Source of the DNA: a bacterium
GTDB taxonomy: Bacteria; Zhuqueibacterota; QNDG01; JAFGCO01
Direction: 5' to 3'
NCBI GenBank assembly: GCA_016932575.1
Contig: JAFGCO010000067.1
Coordinates: 124,001-188,000 of the forward strand
DNA: 64,000 nt
A program made the position numbers and the translations under genes. Each line of letters opens with the position of its first letter. Positions within the stretch are counted from its first letter, which is position 1. A model generated the notes under the pieces. That model was not told the origin of the DNA and searched no databases. It saw only the letters and a list, made by a program, of their open reading frames with translations. Below are positions 54,236 through 58,894 of the stretch, in pieces.

Positions 54236-54374
54236 TAATTATTATATAAAGTCATGAATTGATGAAATAAAACAAAAAATCTTTTTGATTATTTATTTTT
54301 TTTATTATAATAAGATATAATTTATATAATTGCGTATATATTAATCATTTAATTATCCTTAGAATGAGCATTTA

Positions 54375-55697
54375 ATGACAGCTGAAATAGCTATAATGAA
54401 TAAAACTGCTGTTGCATTAGCTGCTGATTCAGCTGTAACAATAGCAGATAAAGAAAATCAGAAAATCTATAATACCGTTAATAAGTTATTTGCTCTATCA
54501 AAATATGATCCAGTAGGCATAATGGTATATGGTAGTGCTGATATTATGGGAGTACCATGGGAAACAATAATAAAAATGTATCGTAATCATATTGCTAATA
54601 ATAATTATTCTACATTAGAAGAATATGCAAAAAGTTTTATTACTTTTCTCGATAATAAAAACCCGTTGTTTCCCAATGATGTTCAAGATAATTATTTTAC
54701 TGGTACAGTTAGTAACTATTTTTCATGGATCCATAAAGAAATAAACGATAATGTTAAGGTCATCACTGATGAAGATGGAGAAATAAGTGTTGATAATATA
54801 AAAAAAATAGTAAATAATACAATAAATAAACATTACCAAATATGGAATAATTGTGAAAGTCTAGCACATTTAAAAAATAGCTTCAATCAAAATTTATTGA
54901 AAAAACATGCTATTTTCATAGAAAATTGTATTAAAAATGTTTTTCAAGAATTACCTCTTACTGCAAAAAACAAGCAACAGTTAAAAAACCTGTCAGTTTA
55001 TTTATTCTCAAAAAACAGATTCCCAAAAGTTCATTCTGGCATTGTAATAGCCGGCTTTGGAACAAATGATATATATCCAGCTATTAATGCATTTATGATA
55101 GAAGCTGTTATTAATGACAGATTAAAATATATTAAAAACGATAATAAATGTGATCGTATTAATTTTCGAAATAATGCTACAATAATACCATTTGCACAAA
55201 GTGAAAATGTCCATACATTCATTGAAGGCATGGATCCTAATTGTAAAAAATTATTCTTTAGTTATTTAGAAGAGTTATTCGATAAATACCCTTCTGAGAT
55301 AGTTAATTCAATTGAACAGATTAATGAAAAAGAAAAAAAGAAAATAATAGATAAACTTAATGATATAAATAAAAAAATCTTAAAAACTTTTATAGATACT
55401 GTACAGCAATATATATCTGAAACAAACATAAAACCCATAATAAATGCTGTGGCCTTTTTACCAAAAGATGAACTAGCTTCAATGGCGGAGTCGTTAGTGA
55501 ATTTAACCTCTTTCAAACAAAGAATTTCTATGGATTCTGAAACTGTAGGGGGCCCAATAGATGTTGCAGTAATTTCAAAAGGTGATGGTTTTATTTGGAT
55601 TAAAAGAAAGCACTATTTCAAACCAGAATTAAATCATCACTTTTTCTCTAATTATTTTTATACACCAAATGAGGTAAAAAATGAAAAGGCAAATTAA
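54375..55697 (+). CDS. Proteasome-beta-like Ntn-hydrolase protein of an AT-rich island
   Basis: A 440-residue protein of unknown function. It begins MTAEIAIMNKTAVALAADSA. If Met is removed, Thr1, Asp17 and a Lys before Leu-Phe (Lys36) stand where proteasome beta subunits have Thr1, Asp/Glu17 and Lys33, with a three-residue insertion. GIMVYGSADIMGVPWETI follows like the next strand and helix. Residues ~220-245 (HSGIVIAGFGTNDIYPAI) and the C-terminal VGGPIDVAVISKGDG resemble later strands, so the fold seems split by helical, Lys-rich insertions (~75-210 and ~290-375). No propeptide is needed, since Thr follows Met. The sequence is extremely AT-rich compared with its neighbours and has no ribosome-binding site. 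The function is not known to me; a threonine-type hydrolase is inferred. Confidence 0.6.
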   Translation: MTAEIAIMNKTAVALAADSAVTIADKENQKIYNTVNKLFALSKYDPVGIMVYGSADIMGVPWETIIKMYRNHIANNNYSTLEEYAKSFITFLDNKNPLFPNDVQDNYFTGTVSNYFSWIHKEINDNVKVITDEDGEISVDNIKKIVNNTINKHYQIWNNCESLAHLKNSFNQNLLKKHAIFIENCIKNVFQELPLTAKNKQQLKNLSVYLFSKNRFPKVHSGIVIAGFGTNDIYPAINAFMIEAVINDRLKYIKNDNKCDRINFRNNATIIPFAQSENVHTFIEGMDPNCKKLFFSYLEELFDKYPSEIVNSIEQINEKEKKKIIDKLNDINKKILKTFIDTVQQYISETNIKPIINAVAFLPKDELASMAESLVNLTSFKQRISMDSETVGGPIDVAVISKGDGFIWIKRKHYFKPELNHHFFSNYFYTPNEVKNEKAN

Positions 55698-55860
55698 TAA
55701 AAGTAAGAGTTCGGTTACATACGACCAATATTTGGAAAAATATTTCCCTAAAACTGAAATTAATAATGAGAAACATTATGATAAACCAGAAGAATTCGGA
55801 GTTGTATTAGCTAGACAATCTCTAATTAAAATTCACAAAACACTTTCAAATCTAAAATAA
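55681..55860 (+). CDS. Small 59-residue protein overlapping the Ntn-hydrolase gene
   Basis: A 59-residue frame begins at ATG 55681, 17 bases before the end of the upstream gene, and stops at 55858-55860. It reads MKRQINKSKSSVTYDQYLEK at the start and IHKTLSNLK at the end. It is Lys-rich and predicted to be helical, and it shares the AT-rich composition of the upstream gene. No domain is recognised. Overlap and composition suggest it belongs to a two-gene unit, perhaps as a partner or regulator of the Ntn hydrolase. Confidence 0.55.
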   Translation: MKRQINKSKSSVTYDQYLEKYFPKTEINNEKHYDKPEEFGVVLARQSLIKIHKTLSNLK

Positions 55861-55949
55861 TTAAAATAAGTTAATTTTTTAATTTTGCTTCATTAATCAA
55901 ATGAAAAATTAATTATTATTTAATTTTGCATATAAACATTTCTCTCTTG

Positions 55950-56895: not shown

Positions 56896-56974
56896 ATTTC
56901 TAACACAGTGAAGCTGTAATCACGGCTGCAGACTATTTAAATCAAATCAACCATCAGCTTACGGAGTTTTGAAT

Positions 56975-58894
56975 ATGGAAATTTTTGTCCCCGGACGCAT
57001 CTGTCTCTTTGGTGAACACAGCGATTGGGCCGGAGGATATCGCCGGATCAACGCGGATCTTGAAAAGGGACATACCATTATCACCGGCACCAACCAGGGC
57101 ATTTACGCCCGGGTATCTTCCCACCCAAACAAGTTAATCTTTCATGCTGCACTAAACGACGGTTCACGAAAAGGTCCTTATGAATTGCCCATGGAACGCG
57201 ACGCACTTTTGGCCGAAGCTGAAAAAGGGGGGTTTCTCAGTTATGTGGCGGGCGTGGCCTATCAGGTGCTCACTCATTATCGTGTTCGGGGGCTCGAGAT
57301 TGACAATTACAAAACCGACCTGCCTGTTAAAAAGGGACTGTCATCGAGCGCAGCAGTCTGTGTATTAATCGCCCGTGCGTTTAATCGGATATACGATCTG
57401 AAAATGACCCTGCGTGGCGAAATGGAATATGCCTACCTGGGCGAAATCACAACACCGTCCCGGTGCGGCCGAATGGATCAGGGATGTGCCTATGGCAACC
57501 GGCCCATTCTGATGACATTCGATGGTGACAGGATTGATGTTAAAGAATTCAATGTTCCCAATAACCTCTATTTTGTCATTGTGGATCTTCATGCCGGCAA
57601 AGATACCCGGGAGATTCTCGGCAAACTCAATGAAAGTTATCCCTTTCCTGCGACAGACCTTCATCGTGGTGTTCAGGAATATCTAGGCCCCATCAACAAG
57701 AAGATTGTCAAAACAGCTGAAAAACTGTTGACAGAAGGCAATGCAAAAGCTCTCGGCCGCTTGATGACAGAAGCCCAGGCTGAACTGGACAAACACCTTC
57801 AACCGGCCTGCCCCTCCCAGCTGACAGCGCCAATCCTCCACAAATTGCTCAGTGATAAGCGGATTCAGCCATATATTTACGGTGGAAAAGGTGTGGGCTC
57901 CCAGGGTGATGGTACGGCTCAGTTAATTGCCAAAGACGCAGAAAATCAGGAAAAACTGATTCGGATCATTGAAAATGAGATGGACATGTCCTGCCTGAAA
58001 CTGATCATTCAATCAGGGCAGCGGGTGAAAAAAGCCGTGATCCCGGCAGCAGGATTCGGATTGCGTCTCTTTCCGGCTTCCAAGGCCATGAAAAAAGAAC
58101 TGTTCCCGGTACTCGACCGGGACGGCCGGACAAAACCGGCCATTCAGATTATTATTGAAGAAGCGGTTCACGCCGGTATCGAAGAAATCGCCATCATCGT
58201 GCAGCCGGAAGATCAGCCGCTCTTTGAAGAATATTTTTACCAGCCCCTTCGTATTGAAAATCTGAGTAAATTATCCCAGGAAAATCAGGCATACAGTCAA
58301 TATATTCTGGATCTGGGACATCGACTTACCTTCATCCCACAAGAAACCCAGGATGGTCTGGGACATGCCACATATTGTGCAAATGACTGGGTGGATGGAG
58401 AGCCTTTCCTCCTCATGCTGGGCGATCATCTCTATCAATCCAATACAGACATTTCCTGTACACGTCAATTGCTGAATGCTTACGACCGCGTCGGTCACAG
58501 CGTAGTGGGCTTAATGACAACGCCCGCCAAGGATGTTCAAAAATTCGGATGCGTCACTGGAATCTGGCAGGAAAAAGATGTGCTCCTTTCAATTACGGAT
58601 TTTACCGAGAAACCGTCCGCTGAATACGCTAAAGAACACCTCTACGTGGAAGGTATGCATGAAGATACGTTCTTGACCATTTCCGGACAATATGTGCTGA
58701 CCCCCAAGATATTTGATATTCTTAAAAATCATATTCATCACAATCTGCGCGAGTCCGGCGTCTTTCAGCTGACCTCAGCTTTGGATAAGGTTCGTGTCGA
58801 AGAGGGTTTTTCAGGATATATTTTACAAGGTCAGCGATTCGATATAGGCGCTCCGGATACATATCGCCAAACTCTAATTGCTCTGGGAGATTAA
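56975..58894 (+). CDS. GHMP sugar kinase/UTP-sugar-1-phosphate uridylyltransferase fusion
   Basis: A 639-residue two-domain protein. Residues 1 to ~350 are a GHMP-superfamily kinase: PGRICLFGEHSDWAGGYRR near the N-terminus and PVKKGLSSSAAVCV (~117-130) as the ATP loop, resembling galactokinase or plant glucuronokinase. Residues ~352-639 form a GalU-like nucleotidyltransferase, beginning KKAVIPAAGFGLRLFPASKA and containing LMLGDHLY. Together they would turn a free sugar into a sugar-1-phosphate and then a UDP-sugar. The sugar is unknown. The start is ATG 56975 with GGAG 8 bases upstream; a TTG at 56969 is in frame. The order (kinase first) differs from the fucokinase fusion FKP. Confidence 0.85.
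   Translation: MEIFVPGRICLFGEHSDWAGGYRRINADLEKGHTIITGTNQGIYARVSSHPNKLIFHAALNDGSRKGPYELPMERDALLAEAEKGGFLSYVAGVAYQVLTHYRVRGLEIDNYKTDLPVKKGLSSSAAVCVLIARAFNRIYDLKMTLRGEMEYAYLGEITTPSRCGRMDQGCAYGNRPILMTFDGDRIDVKEFNVPNNLYFVIVDLHAGKDTREILGKLNESYPFPATDLHRGVQEYLGPINKKIVKTAEKLLTEGNAKALGRLMTEAQAELDKHLQPACPSQLTAPILHKLLSDKRIQPYIYGGKGVGSQGDGTAQLIAKDAENQEKLIRIIENEMDMSCLKLIIQSGQRVKKAVIPAAGFGLRLFPASKAMKKELFPVLDRDGRTKPAIQIIIEEAVHAGIEEIAIIVQPEDQPLFEEYFYQPLRIENLSKLSQENQAYSQYILDLGHRLTFIPQETQDGLGHATYCANDWVDGEPFLLMLGDHLYQSNTDISCTRQLLNAYDRVGHSVVGLMTTPAKDVQKFGCVTGIWQEKDVLLSITDFTEKPSAEYAKEHLYVEGMHEDTFLTISGQYVLTPKIFDILKNHIHHNLRESGVFQLTSALDKVRVEEGFSGYILQGQRFDIGAPDTYRQTLIALGD

Follow-up and report, generated by a model that had tools for sequence, protein, structure and literature searches.

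Fuchs, Alva and Lupas (2021; PMC8665760) described 22 subfamilies of proteasome-like proteins. One of them, PMI-4 (Proteasome homolog with Multiple Insertions 4), comprises about 500 sequences from bacteria, Euryarchaeota and phages, with one insertion following H1/H2 and another between H3 and H4; PMI-3 shares these insertions, has few members and is not listed for phages. In that survey, no genomic context suggestive of function was found, helical insertions at these two places were argued to clash with ring formation, homologs without unfoldase partners were suggested to act in protein quality control, and the wider family was seen to include a ligase.

The protein described here is encoded in a bacterial stretch of 64,000 nucleotides (the window, to which all coordinates refer), by an open reading frame of 440 codons on the forward strand (54375..55697). 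It is a proteasome-beta-like Ntn hydrolase and very likely a member of PMI-4, where its architecture and spread place it following PMC8665760: insertions are present at both sites, and relatives occur in phages, many bacterial phyla and Euryarchaeota. It has in common with PMI-4 the proteasome-like core, the positions of the insertions (after H1/H2 and between H3/H4), the absence of a propeptide and of an unfoldase partner, and the wide distribution; the 2021 paper describes neither a conserved small partner gene nor its link to a KRKHYF tail. The enzyme family, which the initial annotation implied to be novel, has therefore been catalogued since 2021 without a function, and it is the small partner gene that had gone unremarked. 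The same family is present in PHROGs as phrog_5990, which matches the hydrolase profile over its full length (E 9e-128) and differs in being annotated as of 'unknown function'. Searches of Pfam, NCBIfam and PADLOC with the single proteins yield sub-threshold matches only; one of these, to Abi_C (E 0.038), falls within a variable insertion and was disregarded. In the open-licence literature we found no functional work on the family and no report of a defence role.

Fold and active site

The gene starts with ATG, and its product begins with MTAEIAIMNKTAVALAADSAVTI and contains the segments IVIAGFG and VGGPIDVAVISKGDG, all as initially annotated. From an alignment of 31 relatives, AlphaFold2 gave a model (mean pLDDT 88.3, pTM 0.83) that has the four-layer alpha-beta-beta-alpha core, as seen in the model itself and in comparisons by Foldseek and VIA-align. 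Against the PDB, Foldseek places 20S proteasome beta subunits at the top (E 6e-5) and finds Anbu at E 6e-4; VIA-align superposes the model on the proteasome beta subunit of Archaeoglobus (1j2q_H) over 180 residues with a Z-score of 16.1 and an rmsd of 2.9, pairing residue 2 of the model with residue 1 (Thr1) of the subunit. The profile of the family matches archaeal proteasome beta by sequence alone (E 3e-4), over the Thr1 segment and the GGxIDVAVI (GG-IDVAVI-DG) segment. Together with the number of relatives, the phrog_5990 match and the conservation of the three catalytic residues, this puts the observation well outside the reach of chance. Structure prediction and fold search thus return the single-chain proteasome-beta-like fold that had been proposed, with one amendment: where the initial annotation spoke of a split fold, the insertions are there, but the fold itself is intact within one chain.

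The catalytic residues lie where they had been placed from the sequence. Of 136 non-redundant full-length relatives, 134 have Thr and 2 have Ser at the position of the predicted N-terminal nucleophile, Thr2 (54378..54380, forward strand), while Asp18 (54426..54428, forward; proteasome Asp17) and Lys37 (54483..54485, forward; proteasome Lys33, shifted three residues later) are invariant (136/136 each), so that no relative lacks either Thr/Ser2 or Lys37. The latter is residue 36 of the mature protein and immediately precedes Leu-Phe. Together with the fold, this conservation argues for a proteasome-type active site formed by Thr2, Asp18 and Lys37. The equivalent of the oxyanion glycine Gly47 is less clear: the candidate, G53, lies in a GSAD segment and is not strictly conserved, several relatives having N, S or D in its place. 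Removal of the initiator methionine by methionine aminopeptidase exposes residue 2 of a protein, and would expose Thr2 here. As residue 1 is a possible start codon in all 136 relatives, the nucleophile follows directly upon the initiator methionine throughout the family and there is no propeptide, as previously claimed.

Both of the large helical insertions that had been predicted are present in the model. The first (approximately residues 95-220; 54657..55034, forward strand) follows helices H1/H2 and is not conserved in sequence; the second (approximately residues 288-360; 55236..55454, forward strand) lies between H3 and H4, the boundaries of both being taken from the secondary structure of the model. 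The hydrolase thus shares its fold and the residues Thr1, Asp17 and Lys33 with the 20S proteasome beta subunits, but differs from them in being a single chain of 440 residues, about 200 of which belong to helical insertions, in lacking a propeptide, and in having a small partner gene and no gene for an alpha subunit or ATPase nearby. Anbu, which is among its best structural matches, and HslV are likewise bacterial proteins of proteasome-like fold, but both lack the two insertions, and HslV has a coupled unfoldase, HslU. Since such insertions would clash with rings (PMC8665760), and since no gene for an alpha subunit or an AAA+ unfoldase is found among the neighboring open reading frames of the window (as the initial annotation had observed for the unfoldase), an unfoldase-fed barrel is unlikely; the insertions probably prevent a 20S-like barrel and shape substrate access instead.

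A conserved small partner gene

Directly behind the hydrolase gene, and overlapping its end by 17 nucleotides, lies an open reading frame of 59 codons (55681..55860, forward strand). The initial annotation, which considered the hydrolase a possible stand-alone protease, was right as to the lack of an unfoldase but missed this gene. Counting as a partner any frame of 50-85 codons that starts within -45 to +40 of the hydrolase stop, we find one at 107 of 117 non-redundant loci; for control stops taken from the same DNA, the figure is 306 of 1480 (21%). A profile built from 29 of these frames recognizes the partner at 74 of the 117 loci as one homologous family; at many phage loci, the small frame is too diverged to be recognized as such. 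In close pairs its dN/dS is 0.06-0.24 (for example 0.032/0.494 for L059/L063), which marks it as a protein-coding gene under purifying selection. The protein has a conserved segment, Y-S-x-x-E-[FY]-E ... [FY]-[FL]-P-[KN], and a C-terminal helix with the pattern LG..LA.ESL..I; in its model, a disordered basic start leads into a short helix, followed by the FP segment and, at the C-terminus, by a long helix.

The two genes are inherited together. Of 82 genomes from the window's phylum, only three are matched by the small-protein profile, all of them with the hydrolase and two of them not used in building the profile; in the fourth genome with a hydrolase, the hydrolase gene is matched in two pieces and the small frame is diverged. 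Among 51 hydrolase-bearing genomes, 47 have a small-protein match (many of their sequences having built the profile), and 46 of the 47 have exactly one; the sole second match is at G109:C79:12928-13065. The distances of hydrolase and small protein are correlated (r = 0.69, p 0.0005, 70 pairs). Long C-terminal extensions of the hydrolases at L119 and L140 were considered as natural fusions of the two proteins and are not; there, the small frame is hidden in another reading frame, overlapping the hydrolase gene by 100-143 nucleotides.

The C-terminal tail

Behind the last core strand, the hydrolase carries the near-invariant motif W-I-K-R-K-H-Y-F (residues 408-415; 55596..55619, forward strand), among the most conserved stretches of the whole family. 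Residues 412-415 have a pLDDT below 50 in the AlphaFold2 model; a tail that is conserved, yet unstructured on its own, suggests a contact. Fourteen relatives, mostly from Alphaproteobacteria, lack the tail but agree with the others in core, active site and insertions, and of these only two have a small frame, in both cases GC-rich and chance-like. Among the rows scored as having the tail, the small frame is found in 115 of 131 by the strict rule and in 122 of 131 when deeper overlaps are allowed. Fisher's test of tail against small gene gives p near 1e-8 to 1e-10, over rows that are related by descent and include, on the tail-negative side, 4 of 18 that are truncated, frameshifted or misread (L089, L101, L133, L151). 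In the tree, loss of the tail amounts to at most three changes, only one of them on firmly supported branches; the small gene changes in the same way as the tail in most pairings. As relatives without the tail also lack the small gene, we infer that the tail is the docking site of the small protein; that tail and partner belong together is suggestive only, and is offered as a lead.

The branch without tail and small gene comprises L157-L160, L162, L165-L167, L169, L173, L187, L191, L194 and L196, and one genome, G502, carries two divergent copies. Two further loci (L054:5001-5831 and L055:5001-5831) encode a shorter proteasome-like protein, a 315-residue open frame without large insertions, in which about 36 residues precede an MTIAISI start; it has the same WIKRKHYFNPELN tail, and a frame of 45 codons follows 6 nucleotides behind. 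This may be another subfamily using the same arrangement of tail and partner.

Genomic setting and spread

The two genes and their flanks form a foreign cassette (54236..55925, to which no strand is assigned), recognizable by its composition: their coding GC content is 27% and their GC3 18%, as compared to 42-48% and 44-50% in the surrounding genes (greA, marC, proC and the genes for a cation transporter and a sugar kinase). The pair sits by itself, flanked by proC on one side and the cation transporter gene on the other. L204, from a genome in the same order, has marC immediately ahead of the orthologous transporter gene, and proC, the hydrolase gene and the small gene are all missing there. 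At the ends of the cassette, the search for target-site duplications gave just AT-rich matches of chance quality, and no intrinsic terminator was found at the cassette. Further along the window (56969-58894), a frame of 641 codons appears, on reading its sequence, to encode a GHMP sugar kinase fused to a UTP-glucose-1-phosphate-uridylyltransferase-like domain.

Relatives of the hydrolase are found on 51 viral contigs and at more than 500 GTDB loci, on plasmids and on the chromosomes of archaea and many bacterial phyla, with a sporadic distribution: within the phylum, 4 of 82 genomes have it, as do 10 of 398 Pseudomonadota and 16 of 385 Alphaproteobacteria (centre genomes counted). The position of the gene inside phages varies. 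It is located in Streptococcus phage satellites at, or close to, the end that lies away from the integrase, behind the lysis genes in a streptococcal phage, against the direction of its neighbors in a Stenotrophomonas phage, and near antiterminator Q in lambdoid elements and prophages. Two unrelated prophage sites of E. coli carry the family (L148:7957-9240 and L149:7786-9189), and in the second, a Rac-like prophage, the gene adjoins a repressor-type HTH gene, opposite the replication genes. The tree of the hydrolases mixes domains and phyla, as expected of horizontal spread. The mobility surmised in the initial annotation is thus borne out by the GC-poor cassette, by recurrence in prophages, satellites and plasmids, and by the tree.

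The 137 neighboring proteins surveyed are mostly housekeeping, with a few restriction-modification genes and no defence-island enrichment; no model of PADLOC-DB 2.0 matches the hydrolase or the small protein. At five rhizobial and sphingomonad loci (L140:4733-9437, L119:6720-11393, L144:5274-11751, L150:7001-13210, L151:7001-13203), the hydrolase lies near a ubiquitin-like conjugation operon, with a Multi_ubiq + Prok-E2_E protein and a ThiF-type E1 a few kb away in two arrangements; in Rhizobium, DUF6527 and a ClpP-like protease are found as well. A general link to ubiquitin-like conjugation was considered and rejected, the association being local and absent beside the gene both in the remaining records searched and at 12 further alphaproteobacterial loci.

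Possible roles of the module

These considerations suggest a two-gene protease module that is self-contained and spreads horizontally. Methionine aminopeptidase would expose Thr2 of the propeptide-free hydrolase; such an enzyme is constitutively mature and so needs either restraint or a narrow specificity. The small gene, translated from its overlapping start, would yield a small helical protein that docks on the KRKHYF tail and either controls the hydrolase or supplies its target. In the form that we favor, the partner would restrain the hydrolase until, upon infection, a specific phage or host protein is cleaved, and the module would be carried by prophages, satellites and plasmids as an anti-phage defence gene. 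Defence is the first choice because prophages, satellites, plasmids and solo cassettes are where accessory defence genes are typically carried; an anti-phage role is thus probable, and the 'defence or toxin module' of the initial annotation was a reasonable guess. Sequence and model establish the fold, the conserved residues, the partner gene, its joint inheritance with the hydrolase and the mobility of the pair; contact between the proteins, regulation, substrate and defence are proposals built upon these. Taken as a whole, with docking on the tail and the anti-phage role included, the proposal is tentative and, in our estimation, slightly more apt to fail in some part than to hold in all.

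Two overlapping genes, the second of them tiny, that travel as a solo cassette on plasmids, satellites and prophages also bring to mind an addiction system, in which the hydrolase would be a toxic protease, the small protein its antitoxin, and the pair a means of stabilizing the elements that carry it. We consider this unlikely: occurrence is widest on chromosomes, where addiction is not needed; the enzyme gene comes first, whereas antitoxins tend to be encoded ahead of the toxin or to be present in excess; and tail-less relatives survive without the small gene, which would not be expected of a toxin lacking restraint unless they are tamed otherwise. The small protein might instead be a dedicated substrate, tag or acyl acceptor, cleaved or ligated by the hydrolase, in the way that the MtrA motif is ligated by connectase, or that substrates reach a proteasome through a Pup-like targeting peptide. 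Its disordered basic N-terminus, the FFPK motif with its invariant proline, the C-terminal helix and the exclusive pairing with a hydrolase whose family includes a ligase (PMC8665760) would all fit such a role, but it has no Gly-Gly or other constant C-terminus, unlike Pup, and, one alphaproteobacterial group excepted, no activating enzyme adjoins the pair, which makes this quite unlikely.

That the hydrolase regulates lysogeny or the phage cycle, or acts against defence, by cleaving a host or phage regulator on behalf of its carrier, is decidedly improbable in our view; the neighboring repressor in the Rac-like prophage of E. coli and the proximity to antiterminator Q in lambdoid prophages speak for it, but the position within phages is not constant and most copies in cellular genomes, archaea included, are away from phage genes. 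The protein quality control suggested by Fuchs et al. for homologs without unfoldase partners (PMC8665760), exercised together with housekeeping chaperones in the manner of an uncapped 20S proteasome, is very improbable for a gene that is sporadic (4/82 in the phylum, 10/398 in Pseudomonadota), anomalous in GC and mobile, and in this unlike a housekeeping gene. Returning to the anti-phage reading, in its fullest form the pair would be a hitherto unrecognized immune module, shared by prophages, satellites, bacteria and archaea, whose propeptide-free, proteasome-like threonine hydrolase is controlled by a partner docked on the KRKHYF tail rather than by unfoldase and ring assembly; this is possible, and on the doubtful side.

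Implications for the proteasome-like family

More than 20 proteasome-like subfamilies are known as sequences only, and the PMI-4-like proteins are one of the most widespread. For this family, the analysis adds a partner gene that looks obligate, a motif that is a candidate for docking and a setting on mobile elements, which make its function testable. Should the hydrolase prove to act in immunity, the proteasome fold would be added to those that prokaryotic immune enzymes employ, without the unfoldase machinery.
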